Program-made: the position numbers and the translations under genes
Assembly (NCBI RefSeq): GCF_039503195.1
Contig: NZ_JBCJKP010000001.1
Coordinates: 6,758,001-6,822,000, forward strand
From: Streptomyces mirabilis
Lineage (GTDB): Bacteria; Actinomycetota; Actinomycetes; Streptomycetales; Streptomycetaceae
Reading direction: 5' to 3'
Length of the DNA stretch: 64,000 nucleotides
Notes under the pieces: model-generated
What the model saw: the letters and a program-made list of their open reading frames with translations, nothing else
Database searches by the model: none
What the model was told of the DNA's origin: nothing
Shown: positions 1,513 to 12,690 of the stretch, piece after piece
How the letters are laid out: each line of letters starts with the position of its first letter
Position numbering within the stretch: the first letter of the stretch is position 1

Positions 1513-2481
1513 TCACACAATCACACGCAGTGCACGGCGTACGCCTGTGAACGTCACGCTAGTGCGCAGTCCCAGGTGGTCGCCGTCCATCTGGAGGGGG
1601 AGCGGCGCCTTCGAATGCAAGGTGAAGTCGGTCAGGTCGTGCAGGGACAGGGCGTGCCTGCCGTGGGGTCCGCGCTCGGGGGACGAAGTGAGCAACTGGG
1701 TGGCATACCGGGCGGCCGAGGCCGTCGACATGCGGTTGAGAGCGAGTACGTCGAGCCCGGTATCGAACGAAGCCTTAGGTGACGCGTACACCGGACGATT
1801 GCCGAGAAACGTCCAGGGCGAGGTGTTGCAGATTATGGACATCACGAGATCGGTGACCGGGTCCTGGCCGGGCTGCTCCAGTGTGATCGTTCCGTGTCTG
1901 CGGTGAGGTTCGTCCAAAAACTGACGTGCCACTTGGCGCAAATAGAGGGCGTGGGTGGAACGCTTGCCGCGCTCGCGCTGCTGTTCGACCCGGCCGATCA
2001 CCCCCGCGTCGAAGCCGAGTCCCGCGCAGAAGGTGAACCAGCGGGAGGGGACGGCTTCGTCCTCGGTGCCCGGGGTACCCGCGGCGAGACCGAGGCCGAT
2101 CGCGCGCTCACGGTCCTCTCTGAGCGCGTCCAACAGGGCGCCGGTGGCCTCCACGGCGTCGTTGGGCAGGCCCAGGGCGCGGGCGAAGACATTGGTGGAG
2201 CCGCCGGGGACCACCGCGAGGCGGGGCAGACGGTCCAGGTCGGGGCCGTTGTGCAGGAGACCGTTCACGACCTCGTTGACGGTGCCGTCGCCGCCGAGTG
2301 CGACCACCAGTTCTATGTCGTCGCTCTCCCCGGCCTGCCGACCGAGGTCCCGGGCATGCCCGCGGTACTCGGTCGTGACCACCTCGAGCTTCATCTCGCT
2401 CGCCAGCGCGTGGATCAAGACATCGCGCGTGCGCGCACTCGTGGTGGTAGCTGCCGGATTGACCACGAGAAGTGCACGCAT
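1513..2481 (-). CDS. Diacylglycerol kinase family lipid kinase
   Basis: The 322-aa protein starts with MRALLVVNPAATTT and has the catalytic GGDGTVNEVVNGL motif near residue 63 and the PGGSTNVFARALGLP segment near residue 93, both diagnostic of the DAGK catalytic domain shared with YegS, DgkB and sphingosine kinases. The enzyme transfers phosphate from ATP to a lipid alcohol such as diacylglycerol; the actual substrate cannot be read from sequence. The length is typical for a single-domain family member. It is transcribed toward wblE, with a 319-nt gap containing the wblE promoter, so co-transcription with wblE is possible but not required. Confidence 0.9.
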   Translation of the reverse strand: MRALLVVNPAATTTSARTRDVLIHALASEMKLEVVTTEYRGHARDLGRQAGESDDIELVVALGGDGTVNEVVNGLLHNGPDLDRLPRLAVVPGGSTNVFARALGLPNDAVEATGALLDALREDRERAIGLGLAAGTPGTEDEAVPSRWFTFCAGLGFDAGVIGRVEQQRERGKRSTHALYLRQVARQFLDEPHRRHGTITLEQPGQDPVTDLVMSIICNTSPWTFLGNRPVYASPKASFDTGLDVLALNRMSTASAARYATQLLTSSPERGPHGRHALSLHDLTDFTLHSKAPLPLQMDGDHLGLRTSVTFTGVRRALRVIV

Positions 2482-2638
2482 GCGATGCAGCGTACCTACC
2501 GAGGGGTACTGGTCCCAGACAGAGTAGGGATCCGGTAAGAGATGGGGACGTGAGTCTCGACACGGTCAGGTGCGGGACGCGGTGGGGTGGCGGGCGGGGT
2601 CGGGCCGCGCGCCGGGGCCCGAGGGATACCCTTCGGGG

Positions 2639-3088
2639 GTGAGCGCTGAGCAGATCCCCACCCCTGACGCCCCCTCCGCAGAGCCCCGTCCCGGACGGCT
2701 GACCGCCGCGGCCGCGCTGGCCGGGCTGGAGGGGCTGGTGCTCGCCGTGGGGGGCGTGTGGATGCTCGTCCTGGGGGCCACGAGTGACTCGGGAGACCGG
2801 CAGCAGGGCGTGACCCTGGGTGTGACGCTGATCGTGCTCGCGCTGCTGCCCCTGCTGGCCGCCCGCGGCCTGCTGCTGCGCCGCAGCTGGAGCCGGGGGC
2901 CCGCGGTCATCACCCAGATCATGGCGCTGCCCGTCGCCTACAGCCTGCTCCAGGCGGACAGCGTGGCGATCCCCGCCGGAATCGCCCTCGCGGCGGTCGC
3001 GCTCACGGCGCTGGTCCTGCTCGTCAATCCCGAGACCACCCGGGCGCTGGGCATCCGTGGCCCCGGTGCCGCCGAGGAAACCAAGTAG
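2639..3088 (+). CDS. Small integral membrane protein, function unknown
   Basis: This is a 149-aa protein if it starts at the GTG at 2639; the same frame is open from 2570, but the upstream stretch is Arg/Gly-rich and lacks coding character. After a proline-rich cytosolic N-terminus there are four hydrophobic helices: about residues 30-46 (LAGLEGLVLAVGGVWMLVLG), 60-77, 85-105 and 112-132. A charged tail follows (NPETTRALGIRG...EETK). Proteins like this are common hypothetical membrane proteins in Streptomyces. It lies between the lipid kinase and sigH, divergent from the former and convergent with the latter. I do not recognise a function. Confidence 0.7.
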   Translation: MSAEQIPTPDAPSAEPRPGRLTAAAALAGLEGLVLAVGGVWMLVLGATSDSGDRQQGVTLGVTLIVLALLPLLAARGLLLRRSWSRGPAVITQIMALPVAYSLLQADSVAIPAGIALAAVALTALVLLVNPETTRALGIRGPGAAEETK

Positions 3089-3216
3089 CTTCGGCCTGCC
3101 GGCGGGATCCACACCAGTTGCGCGCCCGCTGAAAAGGCGGGATCCGCGCCCGGAGGGCCGGGCTCGTCCGCCTACCGGGGACTCCGTGGCGACGCCCCCG
3201 CTCGGCGGCTGCCCGG

Positions 3217-4311
3217 TTACTCCTCGACCAGGAGCTTTTCGCGGAGCTGAGCGAGGGTGCGGGCCAGCAGGCGGGAGACATGCATCTGGGAGATGCCGAC
3301 CTCCTGTGCGATCTGCGACTGGGTCATGTTGCCGAAGAAGCGAAGGAGCAGGATCCGCTTCTCTCGCGGGGGGAGGTCCTCGAGCAGGGGCTTCAACGAC
3401 TCCCGGTACTCGACGCCCTCCAGGGCCTCGTCCTCGGCACCCAGCGTGTCCGCTACCGCCGGGGACTCGTCGTCCGTGTCGGGGACGTCCAGCGACAGCG
3501 TGGAGTACGCGTTGGCGGACTCCAGGCCCTCCAGGACCTCCTCCTCCGAGATGGCCAGCTTCTCGGCCAGCTCGTGGACCGTGGGAGAGCGCCCGTGCTG
3601 TTGCGACAGCTCGGCCGTCGCCGTCGTCAGGGCCAGGCGCAGTTCCTGCAGGCGCCGCGGCACCCGCACCGCCCAGCCCTTGTCGCGGAAGTGCCGCTTG
3701 ATCTCACCGACGACCGTCGGAGTCGCGTACGTGGAGAACTCGACGCCGCGCTCCGGGTCGAAGCGGTCGACCGACTTGATCAGGCCGATGGTCGCGACCT
3801 GGGTGAGGTCGTCCAGCGGCTCACCGCGGTTGCGGAAGCGGCGCGCGAGGTGCTCGACGAGCGGGAGGTGCATGCGGACCAGCTGATTGCGCAGCTCCGC
3901 GTACTCCGCGCTGCCGTCCTGCAGCTTGCGCAGCTCGATGAACATCGCCCGCGCGCCGCTGCGGTCCTGCGGGTCGTGCTGGATGTGCTGGGCGCTCGGC
4001 CCTTGCTGCGTGCCCTGCACGCTCTGCACCCCTGGCTTGTCGTGTCGCTCGTGCTCGCTCATAGTCCCGCCCGTCACCAGCCGCCGCCCTTCCGAGGACG
4101 TGCTCGGCGCGGCACCCTCCGGATCCCGTTGCCCGTCGTCCTGGCCGGAGAGGCTCTCCTGTGCGTCCTCCGGGTGCGGCCGGGCCTGTTCGGGGATGCC
4201 GTCGACGCCTTCCACCGCGCGCCGCGGCCCGTCGAGGCCGTCGACGCGTCCGGTGGGAAGCTCCCGTGTGCCGCGCTCTTCGTCCCGCACCGGCCCGTCC
4301 CCGTTCCTCAC
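3217..4311 (-). CDS. sigH: SigB/SigF-family stress sigma factor (SigH-like)
   Basis: The C-terminal about 250 residues form a complete sigma-70 group 3 factor: region 2 (LVEHLARRFRNRGEPLDDLTQVATIGLIKSV, then EFSTYATPTVVGEIKRHFRD), region 3 (HGRSPTVHELAEKL) and region 4 (LPPREKRILLLRFF, then TQSQIAQEVGISQMHVSRLL). I chose the GTG at 4311 because it overlaps the anti-sigma stop in a GTGA junction and codons from there to 4062 have strongly G/C third positions, giving 364 aa. The ATG at 4062 (281 aa) is a good second start. The frame also stays open upstream through the whole anti-sigma gene to a TTG at 4743. SigH of S. coelicolor is reported to exist as several isoforms, which fits. Role: osmotic/stress and developmental transcription. 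Confidence 0.85.
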   Translation of the reverse strand: MRNGDGPVRDEERGTRELPTGRVDGLDGPRRAVEGVDGIPEQARPHPEDAQESLSGQDDGQRDPEGAAPSTSSEGRRLVTGGTMSEHERHDKPGVQSVQGTQQGPSAQHIQHDPQDRSGARAMFIELRKLQDGSAEYAELRNQLVRMHLPLVEHLARRFRNRGEPLDDLTQVATIGLIKSVDRFDPERGVEFSTYATPTVVGEIKRHFRDKGWAVRVPRRLQELRLALTTATAELSQQHGRSPTVHELAEKLAISEEEVLEGLESANAYSTLSLDVPDTDDESPAVADTLGAEDEALEGVEYRESLKPLLEDLPPREKRILLLRFFGNMTQSQIAQEVGISQMHVSRLLARTLAQLREKLLVEE

Positions 4312-4721
4312 GCCGGCCCGGGTCCCGCGCCGCGCTGTTTGTAGAGGCTGATCGAAACGGTCTTGTCCTCGGCGACGGTGGAGTCGACCTTGCCCGCGAG
4401 CGCCGACAGGACGGTCCACGCGAACGTGTCCCGTGACGGAGCGTGACCATCGGTGGTCGGAGCTGAGACCGTCACCTCGAGCGAGTCGTCGATGAGCCGG
4501 AAGACACAGCTGAGCACCGATCCGGGGACGGCCTGCTGCAACAGAATCGCGCAGGCCTCGTCCACCGCGATGCGGAGGTCCTCGATCTCGTCGAGGGTGA
4601 AGTCCAAACGCGCCGCGAGACCGGCCGTAGCCGTACGCAGCACCGACAGGTAGGCACCCGCGGCCGGCAGCCGGACTTCCACGAAGTCCTTCGTCGCGGG
4701 CTCGCCTGCGATCTGGGACAC
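4308..4721 (-). CDS. RsbW-like anti-sigma factor kinase
   Basis: This 137-aa single-domain HATPase_c protein has the N-box-like LRIAVDEACAILLQQA around residue 54, with the core VRLPAAGAYLSVLRTATAGLAARLDFTLDEIEDLRIAVDEA typical of RsbW/SpoIIAB relatives. Such proteins hold SigB-type factors inactive and phosphorylate an anti-anti-sigma partner. The GTG at 4721 is preferred over the TTG at 4733 because a GGAGG sits 5 nt upstream. Its stop overlaps the first sigH start, so the two are translationally coupled and it is the presumed SigH antagonist (RshA/PrsH/UshX in the literature, names not consistent). No anti-anti-sigma gene is visible beside it. Confidence 0.88.
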   Translation of the reverse strand: MSQIAGEPATKDFVEVRLPAAGAYLSVLRTATAGLAARLDFTLDEIEDLRIAVDEACAILLQQAVPGSVLSCVFRLIDDSLEVTVSAPTTDGHAPSRDTFAWTVLSALAGKVDSTVAEDKTVSISLYKQRGAGPGPA

Positions 4722-4982
4722 CCTCACCTCCAAGGTGGTACAAGCTCTTTCGAGCTCTTTTCGGGGGCCGAGGGTCGCCCCCCGGGGTAACGCGCTAGGT
4801 GGTTCAGCGGTGACGCTACCGCGCTCCCAACTTTCCTGTCCTGGGGACCCCGCCCCTTGCTGTCACTCATAGTAAGCCTACGAGTACGCACAGTGGCTAG
4901 GGGTCTGCGGGCCCAAATAGGAAGAGCGCGCGCCGGGTTGACGTACCCAGGCGTCAGACGGTCGAACCGTCCGGGCCGTGGG

Positions 4983-5243
4983 TCACGCCAGTACGTGGTC
5001 GACGAAGCACCAGCGCCAGCTCTCACCGGGTTCGAAGGTCCGCATCACGGGGTGTCCGGTCTCCTTGAAATGCTCCGTCGCGTGCCGCAGCGGCGAGGAG
5101 TCGCAGCAGCCGAGGTGCCCGCAGCTCAGACACAGCCGCAACTGCACCGGATGCGTACCGGCGGCCTGGCACTCCAGGCACGTCTCGCTCAGCGGTCCGG
5201 GTTCGGGGTGCGGCAGCTCGTCGGCGTGCGTGCACTGTTTCAT
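4983..5243 (-). CDS. UBP-type zinc finger protein
   Basis: The 86-aa protein is a single ZnF-UBP domain: CTHADELPH near the start, CLECQAAG, LCLSCGHLGCCDSS, then HATEHFKETGHPVMRTFEPGE and a final SWRWCFVDHVL. The Cys/His spacing matches the bacterial stand-alone UBP zinc fingers that are common in actinobacteria. In eukaryotes the domain binds the free C-terminus of ubiquitin; the bacterial role is unknown. It is divergent from the antiporter gene 61 nt away, an arrangement I recall as frequent in Streptomyces, which may mean a shared promoter region. The ATG at 5243 gives the normal length for the family. Confidence 0.88.
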   Translation of the reverse strand: MKQCTHADELPHPEPGPLSETCLECQAAGTHPVQLRLCLSCGHLGCCDSSPLRHATEHFKETGHPVMRTFEPGESWRWCFVDHVLA

Positions 5244-9052: not shown

Positions 9053-9121
9053 CTGTTCGAAGGCGAGGGCTGCGGCTGTTCGAGGGCGACGGCACCGTCT
9101 GTTCGATCGATCGACAAAAGC
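9053..9121. repeat. Three CTGTTCGA boxes at exact 23-bp spacing upstream of eshA
   Basis: CTGTTCGA occurs at 9053, 9076 and 9099. The first two 23-bp units share 17 of 23 bases; the third runs into the palindrome TCGATCGATCGA. They sit in the 265-nt region between the small divergent gene and eshA, about 120-190 nt before the eshA start. Iterated, evenly spaced boxes suggest a regulator binding cooperatively, but no regulator is known to me for this motif. Confidence 0.55.
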
Positions 9122-9239
9122 GGATCCTCTGCCCAATCCCCCGTGATCCATTCCCGCTCATTCGTGTAATAGCACGGGCACGCTCCGTGATGGAAGGCTG
9201 GTCGGCGCAGATCAGTGCACGACCGGGAGGGCAATTTTC

Positions 9240-10646
9240 ATGTCGGTAGGCGAAGAGGTCCGTGCGGGTCAGGGCAAGCCGCAGCAGAGTCTCGGCACAT
9301 CGGCCGCGCGGAACCTGGCCACCACCACCAAGTCCGCACCCCAGATGCAGGAGATCAGCTCACGGTGGCTGCTGCGCATGCTCCCGTGGGTGAACGTGCA
9401 GGGTGGCACGTACCGCGTGAACCGGCGGCTCAGCTACTCCGTGGGCGACGGCCGCGTGACGTTCGTGAAGACCGGTGACCGTGTGCAGGTCATCCCCGCG
9501 GAGCTCGGCGAGCTGTCCGTGCTCCGCTCGTTCGAGGATCAGGAGGTGCTGGGCGAGCTCGCCCAGCGATGCCAGCAGCGGGAGTTCGTACCGGGCGAAG
9601 TGCTCGCCTCGTTCGGCAGCCCGTCCGACGAGGTGTTTCTGCTCGCGCACGGCAAGGTGGAGAAGATCGGCACCGGCCCGTACGGCGACGACGCGGTCCT
9701 CGGCGTCCTCGCCGACGGCGCGTACTTCGGCGAGCAGGCGCTCATCGACCCGGACGCCATCTGGGAGTACACGGCCCGCGCCGTCACCGCGGTCACCGTG
9801 CTCGCGCTGCCCCGCCAGGACCTCGAGCAGGTCGCCGAGCGCTCCGACGCCCTGCGCGAGCACCTCACGTCGCTGCGCGCGATTCCGGAGCAGCGCACCA
9901 ACAAGTACGGCGAGAAGGAGATCGACCTCGCGGCCGGCCACACCGGGGAGCAGGACATCCCCGGCACCTTCGTGGACTACGAGGCCGCACCGCGCGAGTA
10001 CGAACTGAGCATCGCCCAGACCGTGCTGCGCCTGCACACGCGTGTGGCCGATCTCTACAACCAGCCGATGAACCAGACGGAGCAGCAGCTCCGCCTCACC
10101 GTCGAGGCGCTGAAGGAGCGCCAGGAGCACGAGCTCATCAACAACCGGGAGTTCGGACTGCTCAACAACTGCGAGTACGACCAGCGGCTCCAGCCGCACG
10201 ACGGGGTGCCCAGCCCCGACGACCTGGACGAGCTGCTCAGCCGCCGGCGTGGCACCAAGCTGTTCCTCGCCCACCCGCGCGCGATCTCCGCGTTCGGCCG
10301 CGAGTGCAACAAGCGTGGGCTGGTCCCCGAGAGCGTCGAGATCGCGGGCAACCGCATCCCGACCTGGCGCGGTGTGCCGCTGTTCCCGTGCAACAAGATC
10401 CCCGTCAGCGACGCCCGTACGACCTCGATCATCGCCATGCGTACCGGCGAGGCCGAGCAGGGTGTCATCGGCCTCCAGCAGGCGGGCATCCCCGACGAGA
10501 TCGAGCCGAGCCTGTCGGTGCGCTTCATGGGGATCAACGAACAGGCGATCATCTCCTACCTGGTGACGGCGTACTACTCGGCGGCGGTTCTCGTGCCGGA
10601 CGCCCTCGGCATCCTGGAGAACGTCGAGATCGGCCGCTGGCGGTGA
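9240..10646 (+). CDS. eshA: EshA: family 2B encapsulin shell protein with cyclic-nucleotide-binding domain
   Basis: The 468-aa protein has an N-terminal arm (1-75), an inserted cyclic-nucleotide-binding domain at about 85-205 ([44 protein letters not shown]) and an HK97-like encapsulin shell domain at about 230-468 ([34 protein letters not shown]; ending [34 protein letters not shown]). This is the family 2B encapsulin architecture. EshA of S. griseus and S. coelicolor forms large multimers and affects ppGpp level and antibiotic production; those particles are now understood as encapsulin compartments. The GGGAGG ribosome site precedes the ATG. The stop overlaps the start of the polyprenyl synthase, its presumed cargo. 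Whether cyclic nucleotides are bound is not evident from sequence. Confidence 0.93.
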
Positions 10647-11845
10647 CCTTCCCGACGCCCGCCGCCGTGTTCCCGCCCGATCAGGCGGGAACACCGGGGA
10701 CGAGGCGGAGTCCGGCCGAGACCCTGGACAGGCGGGGCCGCATCGGCAAGCCCACGGAAGGCAGGCCCTCGGACGGCGGTTCCGCGGACGGGAGGCCCAT
10801 GGATCGGCAGGTCGCGCCCGGCCCGGTGGACGGACAGGAGGCGACGGGCATCCTGGAGTACGCGCGGGCGTCCGTCGACCCCGCGCTGCGCAGGGCCGTC
10901 GACTCGCTGCCGGGATCCATGCGCCGGATCGCGCTCTACCACTTCGGCTGGGAGCACGCGGACGGCACCCCGGCGGCGGGCAACGCGGGCAAGGCGATCC
11001 GCCCGGCCCTGGTGCTCACCGCCACGGGAGCGCTCGGCGGTCAGCACGAGGCCGCCGTACAGGCGGCGGCCGCCGTGGAGTTGATCCACAACTTCACGCT
11101 GTTGCACGACGACGTCATGGACCGGGACACCACCCGCAGACACCGCCCCACCGCGTGGACCGTGTTCGGCGACGCCGACGCGATCCTCGCCGGGGACGCC
11201 ATGCAGGCGCTCGCCCAGCGGATGCTCGCCGAGGACTCGCACCCGGCGTCCCAGGCCGCCGCCGCCCGGCTCGCTTCCTGTGTCGTCGAGCTGTGCGAGG
11301 GGCAGCACGCGGACACGGCCATGGAGAAGCGCGGACCCGCCGAGGTCACCCTCGACGAAGTGCTCGCCATGGCCGAGGCCAAGACCGGCGCGCTGCTCGG
11401 CTGCGCGTGTGCGCTCGGCGGGCTGTACGCGGGCGCGGACGAGCAGGACGTCGACGCGCTGGACGCGTTCGGCCGGGAGGCCGGCCTCGCCTTCCAGCTG
11501 ATCGACGACGTGATCGGGATCTGGGGGGACCCGAGCCGCACCGGCAAGCCGGCCGGGGCGGACCTCATCGCCCGCAAGAAGTCGCTGCCCGTGGTCGCTG
11601 CGCTCGCCTCCGGCACCCCGGCGGCGACGGAACTCGCCGAGCTGTATGGAGTTCCCTACGAGGAAGGGGAGTTGGAGCGCACGGTCCTGGCCGTCGAGCG
11701 GGCGGGCGGCCGTGACTGGGCGCAGCTCCAGGCGGCCGACCGGATGTCGCGGGCGATGCACGCGCTGTCCCGGGCGATCCCCGACCCGGAGGCGGCGGGC
11801 GGCCTCCTCGCGCTCGCGGAGTTCGTGACGCGGCGCAGCAACTGA
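10643..11845 (+). CDS. Polyprenyl diphosphate synthase, probable encapsulin cargo
   Basis: This is a 400-aa isoprenyl diphosphate synthase of the trans type. The first aspartate-rich motif is [18 protein letters not shown] (Asp156-Asp160), the second is [12 protein letters not shown] (Asp288-Asp296), and the [10 protein letters not shown] lysine-arginine motif precedes them. It condenses allylic diphosphates with isopentenyl diphosphate; chain length cannot be fixed by eye. I start at GTG 10643 because it overlaps the eshA stop (GTGA). This adds a 52-residue Pro/Gly/Arg-rich tail (beginning [16 protein letters not shown]) before the internal ATG at 10799. Disordered N-terminal tails of this kind act as cargo-loading domains in family 2 encapsulin systems, so the enzyme is inferred to sit inside the EshA shell. 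Confidence 0.9.
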
Positions 11846-11847
11846 CG

Positions 11848-11881
11848 CGTTCGACCCTTCGGATGACCCGTTCGACCCTTC
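11848..11881. repeat. Two 13-bp direct repeats after the polyprenyl synthase stop
   Basis: CGTTCGACCCTTC occurs at 11848-11860 and 11869-11881, giving a 21-bp period directly after the stop codon. The 233-nt gap to the GNAT gene has no clear terminator hairpin, so read-through into the GNAT is possible. Confidence 0.5.
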
Positions 11882-12078
11882 AGAAGGGCGGTTGAAGACC
11901 CCGGGGCCTCCAGGACCGTACGGCACCTGACCTCCGTACGGCACCGGGCTCCGGCCGGAGCGGGTCCCGCGCATCCCCACGGTGTGCGGGGCCCGCCCCT
12001 CCCAGGGCCGGACAGGCCCGAAGGCCCTAGGCTGCAACAGCCGTACGATCAGCGGCGGTTGAGGCGAGAGGGTGGGAC

Positions 12079-12690
12079 ATGGGCGTGGTGATCCGGACGG
12101 CGGACGAGGGCGATCGGGAGCTGGTCACCCGGCTGCTCGACGAGGCGTTCCAGGACGACCCGGTGAGTGTCTGGGTCTTTCCGGACGCGGCGCACCGCCG
12201 CGCCAAGCACCCCGGGCTGATGGGGATGTTCACCGAGGTCGTGCTCGCCGAGGGCCGTGTGGACGTCACGGAGGACGGCACGGCGTGCGCGCTGTGGCTG
12301 CCCGTGCCCGCCGACGCAGGCCACGCCGACGAGGAGGACGACGGTCCCGTACGGCTGCGTGAGGCCGTCGACCCGGACAACGAGCGCGTCGAGCTGATCG
12401 GCCGCCTGACGGCCGGGATCCACCCCGCGGGCCGCGCCCACGAGTACCTGTGGATGATCGGCGTGGCGCCGGAGCGTCAGGGCGAGGGCCTCGGTACCGC
12501 GCTCGTCCGGTCGGTCCTCGACCGCTGCGACCGCGAGGGTCTGCCCGCCTATCTGGAGGCGAGCAACGCCGGTAGCCGCCGCCTCTACGAGCGTCTCGGC
12601 TTCGCTCTCACGGGGCGCCCTCTCGATCTGCCGGACGGTCCGCGGATGTGGCCGATGTGGCGCGAGCCGCAGCCCGGGCGGGGGGTCTGA
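12079..12690 (+). CDS. GNAT family N-acetyltransferase
   Basis: The 203-aa protein has an N-terminal beta strand (VVIRTADEGDRELVTRLLDEAF) and the acetyl-CoA-binding motif A region LWMIGVAPERQGEGLGTALVRSVLDRC near residue 133. Motif B follows as AYLEASNAGSRRLYERLGF. It transfers an acetyl group from acetyl-CoA to an unknown amine or alcohol acceptor. It follows the encapsulin cargo gene on the same strand after 233 nt. Whether it belongs to the compartment operon is open: no N-terminal disordered tail is present, so it is unlikely to be an encapsulated cargo. Confidence 0.85.
   Translation: MGVVIRTADEGDRELVTRLLDEAFQDDPVSVWVFPDAAHRRAKHPGLMGMFTEVVLAEGRVDVTEDGTACALWLPVPADAGHADEEDDGPVRLREAVDPDNERVELIGRLTAGIHPAGRAHEYLWMIGVAPERQGEGLGTALVRSVLDRCDREGLPAYLEASNAGSRRLYERLGFALTGRPLDLPDGPRMWPMWREPQPGRGV

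Follow-up and report, generated by a model that had tools for sequence, protein, structure and literature searches.

EshA of Streptomyces griseus is reportedly a family 2B encapsulin shell with a 2-methylisoborneol (2-MIB) synthase as cargo, and the solved chain 9bhu presumably stems from the work on that protein. Here we describe a related locus of Streptomyces mirabilis, located in a 64-kb stretch of DNA (the window, C1:6758001-6822000 of an 11.1 Mb genome), where an EshA-type shell gene overlaps the gene of a polyprenyl transferase (PT). The shell is like that of the EshA system (671 bits to 9bhu, the closest solved chain, inserted domain included), whereas the predicted cargo is PT and not a cyclase. 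The closest described systems are the PT-type family 2B operons of a 2021 survey by Andreas and Giessen (PMC8346489). According to the accessible portion of that paper these have the same shell with a cyclic-nucleotide fold and an adjacent PT, are mostly without a cyclase, carry a disordered PT N-terminal region of 50-100 residues and occur almost only in Actinobacteria. The gene content of our locus is identical to theirs; the 4-nt overlap and an in-frame hairpin are features of the window's own clade, and go unmentioned in that portion of the survey. A two-component family 2B encapsulin of S. lydicus, as given in an excerpt of PMC12407261, belongs to the same shell family, whereas the window operon has one shell gene.

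The locus is an ordinary PT-type operon of a single-shell family 2B encapsulin, a system already described. Taking the evidence together, we consider it probable that PT is the cargo and makes a product in the range of geranylgeranyl diphosphate (GGPP), that it starts at GTG 10643, that a hairpin behind the shell gene lowers the ratio of PT to shell, and that the compartment has no cyclic-nucleotide gate.

Results

The shell protein matched the NCBIfam model NF041163 at 776.8 bits over nearly its full length (residues 17-466), and its HK97-type domain is of the SrpI/family 2 kind (PF19307, 457.6 bits, residues 216-466). PT matched NF041169, "family 2 encapsulin nanocompartment cargo protein polyprenyl transferase", at 494.3 bits. 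The cut-offs of the NCBIfam models are 450 bits for NF041169 and 400 bits each for NF041163, NF041167 and NF041943, hence the pairing of an EshA-type shell with a prenyl synthase, proposed in an earlier note on this DNA, was confirmed.

For comparison we used 80 related PT loci (79 Streptomyces records and one labelled Actinobacteria bacterium; designated by L numbers) with 3.6-21 kb of DNA around each, 59 of them extending at least 9 kb on both sides. The pattern GGNCCNACNGGNCTNGGNACN served only for the choice of loci, as it matched 113 of 246 genomes and a backward-read control also matched many, which makes it noisy. The shell adjoins PT in 78 of the 80 loci; the other two, L027 and L084, are truncated at a contig edge, have no shell and were excluded from every shell-PT count. 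All counts over 79 rows refer to the named loci plus the window.

The shell and PT open reading frames (Table 1) share 4 nt, GTGA, and ATG 10799 is codon 53 of PT, meaning that a start at GTG 10643 adds exactly 52 residues, both as claimed in the earlier note. Its warning that an annotation from the internal ATG would miss this tail was also borne out, as the NCBI record P0004 from a near relative (348 aa, 97% identity) starts there. The spacer varies freely in length, and in the 79 rows the PT frame is spread over all three phases relative to the shell stop (16, 34 and 29 rows). An in-frame start codon inside the shell stop, followed by an open frame, was found in 29 rows (28 loci and the window), because the last shell codon of these rows has G or A in third position ahead of TGA, and the GTGA overlap is close to chance expectation. 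No PT-frame start overlaps the shell stop in the other 50 rows, where PT must start downstream; there the first in-frame ATG lies at a median of 113 nt past the stop (34 rows at 95-135 nt, 10 nearer and 6 further). The downstream start often reads M(G/A)EFMTET(K/Q)Q(S/G)P or a variant of it, a pattern present in 31 of the 79 rows.

Alignment of the DNA showed that the window and L014-L016 are without about 100 nt between the hairpin described below and the ancestral second Met codon. L017, the nearest sister of this clade (SH-aLRT 87), retains the spacer. On a tree of 78 rows (L023, with a partial shell, was excluded here and from the Trp count below) overlap-only starts required 7 changes, at least 6 of them forced by well-supported branches, given start classes assigned by hand (15 overlap-only, 14 with in-frame spacer and 49 others; L030 and L068 doubtful). 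L036, L038, L051, L059, L070 and L080 retain the tail, and inspection by eye places their ancestral second Met precisely at an ATGA overlap.

These comparisons favour GTG 10643 over ATG 10799 as the probable start of PT, because the residues from about 19 onward are homologous in frame to the translated tails of relatives, which start at M(G/A)EFMTET. In addition, the ATGA overlap of the L036 lineage and the repeated overlap-only starts suggest that translation can begin at the shell stop with the tail kept, which argues for GTG 10643. We suggest that a deletion of about 100 nt in the window clade removed the ancestral ribosome-binding site and start, that translation of PT most likely begins at GTG 10643, coupled to termination of the shell gene, and that the product would carry about 18 spacer-derived residues ahead of what is left of the ancestral tail.

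The hairpin, GTGTnCCCGCCCnnnnGGGCGGGnACAC, lies about 20-50 nt past the shell stop. In 29 of 109 distinct shell-PT spacers the best hairpin was above the 99% level of mononucleotide shuffles, always starting 12-25 nt past the stop, and an anchored pattern detected the hairpin in 59 of the 109, in 58 of these at the same register within 5 nt. It should be noted that these rows (59 spacers, 57 distinct) were selected by a pattern for the inner stem, so that counts of inner pairs are biased; the outer pairs lie outside the selecting pattern, though the structure was nonetheless drawn from the same rows. The outer four pairs were paired in 53-55 of the 57 distinct rows, and 97.1% of all hairpin cells were paired, compared with 37-63% when the structure was slid. 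Double-sided changes were seen in 10 cells against a mean of 1.5 in shuffles (0 of 500 as high), 7 of the 10 at one pair. Beside the core, 37 of the 57 rows have a mismatch between columns 8 and 27, where the window has T-A. Overall, conservation of the stem is strong, with covariation that is real but modest.

A genome-wide search with the consensus pattern, allowing up to 2 mismatches, found the hairpin alone, which rules out a dispersed repeat, and Rfam gave no match to it at E <=1 to suggest a known RNA. A usual intrinsic terminator was likewise rejected, since no site has a T run. Hairpins above the 99% level followed 1 of 5 shells ahead of a cyclase and 2 of 11 shells ahead of a second shell, in both cases farther downstream (+30 to +74). 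Most likely the hairpin keeps PT expression below that of the shell, partial termination being one route. The literature searched, which held no preprints and few subscription papers, contained no study of a shell-cargo hairpin. In L116 the GTG of the hairpin is an ATG in frame with PT, and the start codon may there be within the hairpin. Strong, long and GC-rich hairpins of other sequence are also found 16-64 nt past the second shell of the two-shell loci L097, L100, L101, L104 and L106, where the next gene was not recognised.

AlphaFold2 modelling of PT, built on 17 aligned sequences and assuming the GTG 10643 start, gave a mean pLDDT (predicted local distance difference test) of 79.4 with helices from residue 65 onward, while residues 1-62 scored below 50 and had no secondary structure. 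The tail is thus disordered as the earlier note had it. The same note took all 52 residues as a cargo-loading domain; this part did not stand as proposed, as the first 18 codons or so are spacer with the hairpin and the tail is variable in length. A comparison of tails across homologs, which the note had asked for, found poor conservation, with lengths from 8 residues (L210) to well over 100 (L063). A stretch of 12 residues in the window tail does align in frame with MTDTKQGPTEIL of L025. Within the window clade the pairwise differences in tail length are 24, 15 and 9 nt, all multiples of three, perhaps from only two events. Codon conservation was ruled out as a proof that the overlap is translated, there being no codon-position signal.

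We regard a cargo-loading function of the tail as only plausible. Disordered N-terminal regions of PT have been proposed for loading in PMC8346489, and the available part of that paper reports no targeting motif for PT cargo. No study of cargo loading or packaging in a PT encapsulin was present in the literature we searched. PT would nevertheless be the intended cargo, probably loaded through its disordered N-terminal region.

PT has the Pfam domain PF00348, and its model resembled the solved structures 3nf2 of S. coelicolor (TMt 0.92) and the GGPP synthase 1wy0 (TMt 0.89), with 5jfq also among the best. It shares the fold and the DDxxD motif with 3nf2 and with the type I GGPP synthases 1wy0 and 5jfq, and differs from all three in carrying about 62 additional, disordered residues at its N-terminus. 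Both aspartate-rich motifs, DDVMD and DDVIG, are invariant across the 17 aligned sequences, window included. Type I GGPP synthases have an aromatic residue five positions before the first aspartate-rich motif. This is common to PT (Phe151), 1wy0 (Tyr) and 5jfq (Phe). The product of PT is hence most likely a linear prenyl diphosphate in the C20 range, with GGPP predicted from the GGPP synthase-type fold, the motifs and the Phe five before DDVMD. PT did not reach the cut-offs of the GGPP synthase equivalogs in NCBIfam (IdsB 362.9 against 475 bits; GGPP_syn 184.6 against 500). In L199 the match to PT is divided between two frames near residue 356, which suggests a frameshift or a sequencing error.

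The inserted domain of the shell was thought in the earlier note to gate the compartment by a cyclic nucleotide. The phosphate-binding-cassette Arg of cyclic-nucleotide-binding regulators was not found in the window shell, which has Trp175 at what we take, from an alignment by eye against E. coli CRP, to be the site of that residue. Trp is present at this place in 78 shells, those of the related loci together with the window (64 by pattern, 14 printed), and in 61 of 72 parsed shells of further genomes; in the remaining 11 the parse was out of register, by one place in 7 and by more in 4, with the Trp nearby. The consulted section of PMC12407261, citing earlier work, states that the inserted domain of family 2B binds no cyclic nucleotide, and mentions a different small molecule as a suggested ligand. 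As Trp replaces the Arg and the published domains are reported as non-binding, cyclic nucleotides as the gate are not supported. Closed-shell assembly is known for relatives from the same excerpt, and the window shell would be expected to assemble into a T=1 particle, as relatives do. Antisense to the shell gene, at 9269-9778 on the minus strand, we detected a match to Rfam RF02735 (Sernc350, a Saccharopolyspora antisense RNA; 157.7 bits, gathering 50). This may be an antisense RNA to the shell gene, or perhaps mere conserved coding sequence.

The coordinates of all features are collected in Table 1.

Table 1. Features of the shell-PT locus, in positions of the window.
Feature	Position	Strand	Basis or remark
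Shell protein of an EshA-type family 2B encapsulin, 468 aa	9240..10646	+	NF041163, PF19307 and PF00027; closest solved chain 9bhu
Shell N-terminal extension, residues 18-31	9291..9332	+	Close variants in the full-length shells read (other genomes; 9bhu, 9bix, 9bje)
Domain of cyclic-nucleotide-binding fold, residues 114-201, with Trp175 presumably in place of the phosphate-binding Arg	9579..9842	+	PF00027, before the SrpI-like part
Polyprenyl (predicted geranylgeranyl) diphosphate synthase (PT), 400 aa, favoured GTG start overlapping the shell stop	10643..11845	+	NF041169, PF00348, 3nf2/1wy0
First ~18 PT codons, apparently the shell-PT spacer read in frame (boundary approximate)	10643..10696	+	DNA alignment with relatives
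Conserved spacer hairpin, GTGTTCCCGCC-loop-GGCGGGAACAC, containing the in-frame alternative start GTG 10667	10667..10694	+	Pattern and shuffles
PT codons 19-52, putative remnant of the ancestral N-terminal tail	10697..10798	+	18 residues align with TDTKQGPTEILERRSPTG of L025
Internal ATG, codon 53 of PT, GGGAGG upstream	10799..10801	+	Start of NCBI record P0004
First aspartate-rich motif DDVMD, Phe151 five residues earlier	11108..11122	+	Alignment
Second aspartate-rich motif DDVIG	11504..11518	+	Alignment
GNAT acetyltransferase, separate neighbour 233 bp downstream of PT	12079..12690	+	PF00583

The setting of the operon is a common one. Of 246 genomes sampled from the genus, 240 had a shell above the cut-off, and a protein search gave 6888 PT relatives at <=1e-30 out of 7995 scored; among the 120 relatives listed, many are already annotated with the cargo name. 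Counting only loci that extend far enough, an antiporter (71 of 71), an ACC-deaminase-like gene (71 of 71) and an amidase (60 of 71) are found upstream. Together with the adjacency of shell and PT, these syntenic flanks identify the locus as an inherited Streptomyces neighbourhood. The GNAT gene that was said to follow PT does so, and is a usual neighbour (52 of 75 eligible loci).

The statement that the window holds no terpene cyclase is correct, as all six cyclase matches of the genome lie outside its 64 kb. The nearest, L011 (C1:6734889-6735476), is about 23 kb outside the window and about 33 kb upstream of PT, and the closest shell is about 32 kb from it. As a special trait of this locus the absence does not hold: PT operons are usually without a cyclase in the accessible part of PMC8346489, which counts 900 PT operons, 904 cyclase operons and 165 having both, and six cyclase-only queries gave no match at E <=1e-3 in the DNA around the 80 related PT loci. 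A second shell (717.6 bits) is encoded elsewhere in the S. mirabilis genome, at L219, positions 1788-5172, near 0.80 Mb of C1. It is followed by a cyclase in ATGA overlap (NF041167, 421.2 bits) and by a geranyl diphosphate 2-C-methyltransferase (NF041943, 455.2 bits), and L219 is hence a separate shell-cyclase-methyltransferase operon of the 2-MIB type. The two genes that define this type beside a shell, the cyclase and the geranyl diphosphate methyltransferase, are both present at L219 and were not found beside the shell of the window.

Further we compared the cargo proteins with the N-terminal arm of the shell. In L186 the two-domain cyclase linked to an encapsulin contains GPTGLGTSAARIGLTTTRR, nearly identical to the shell N-terminal extension, and its cargo stretch LGTSAARIGLTTTR is likewise almost the same as the arm. 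The cyclase-cargo motif LGTSAAR matches the arm with a score that column shuffles reach in 0.3-0.7%, a test on six sequences only, which were picked for carrying GPTG. The available text of PMC8346489 proposes the cyclase motif as a targeting sequence and makes no comparison with the shell. Of 30 cyclases, 6 have a shell within about 1.5 kb, and each of these carries the motif or a variant of it, either in the linker or close to the end. A GPTGLGT-like motif was not found in L219. For the start of PT the resemblance was not significant, column shuffles reaching the score in 9-28%, and the arm was the best of all shell windows against it in 4 of 5 column choices. It would be an improbable rule that cargo enters family 2B shells by mimicking the shell N-terminal arm and competing for its site, and that the PT start EFMTETKQSP copies the next part. 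Among 24 geosmin-type synthases that have no shell in the surrounding 1.5 kb or so, a GLGTSAA-like stretch, counting variants, is present in 8 and a GTSAAD linker in another 10, and the cyclase motif may hence have another origin; three synthases of this comparison (L244, L249 and L251) gave no read.

Discussion

Several observations weigh against the reading we prefer. A good Shine-Dalgarno-like GGGAGG precedes ATG 10799. Within the window clade codons 19-52 include 5, 11 and 16 codons with amino-acid changes, against 2 silent ones per pair, and a third-position bias was not found in them; a long tail also appears not to be required in every relative, given the 8 residues of L210. As to the hairpin, the pattern did not find it in 50 of the 109 spacers. 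By two of the five measures used the covariation is only modest, since 43 of 500 shuffles had as many pairs with a double-sided change (3) and 15 of 500 as many further pair types. No T run was found after the hairpin, and a role as a terminator is possible because strong hairpins, of other and longer sequence, follow 5 of 17 shells without a recognised next gene, at comparable positions (+16 to +64).

The strongest competing explanation is that PT is translated from ATG 10799, the 52 upstream codons being an untranslated hairpin spacer and the overlap a chance result of base composition. The spread over three phases in relatives, the GGGAGG, the lack of codon-position signal in the tail, the short tail of some relatives and the start of P0004 all agree with it. 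It has more difficulty with the codons from about 19 onward being homologous in frame to tails that start upstream at M(G/A)EFMTET, with the clade length differences in multiples of three (though these may be two events), and with the lineage of L036 and its five companions, where the second Met sits in the ATGA overlap and the tail is kept. We regard this start as rather unlikely.

Alternatively, shell and PT might be co-transcribed with PT remaining cytosolic and unpackaged. The poorly conserved tails fit such an enzyme, as does the fact that no packaging experiment on a PT system was among the literature searched; the adjacency of shell and PT in 78 of 80 loci, and a disordered N-terminus as in other family 2 cargo, speak against it, and we think it unlikely. 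A cyclic-nucleotide-gated compartment with the whole 52-residue tail as loading domain draws on the disordered PT N-terminus, on the PF00027 domain in the shell and on the loading proposal in the accessible portion of PMC8346489, and appears very improbable given the Trp in the shells inspected, the absence of cyclic-nucleotide binding in characterised relatives (excerpt of PMC12407261) and the spacer origin of the first 18 or so tail codons.

Conclusions

Packaged PT with a start at GTG 10643 and a hairpin that most likely lowers its expression relative to the shell is the account we prefer. The locus is one more member of a catalogued class; the compartment itself is known, and the new detail lies at the shell-PT junction. 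There, the conserved hairpin and the repeated loss of spacer in favour of an overlapping start could both fix the amount of cargo made per shell. If it were true that cargo motifs copy the shell N-terminal arm, this would be a loading rule for family 2, the most abundant encapsulin class in the accessible portion of the 2021 survey (PMC8346489).

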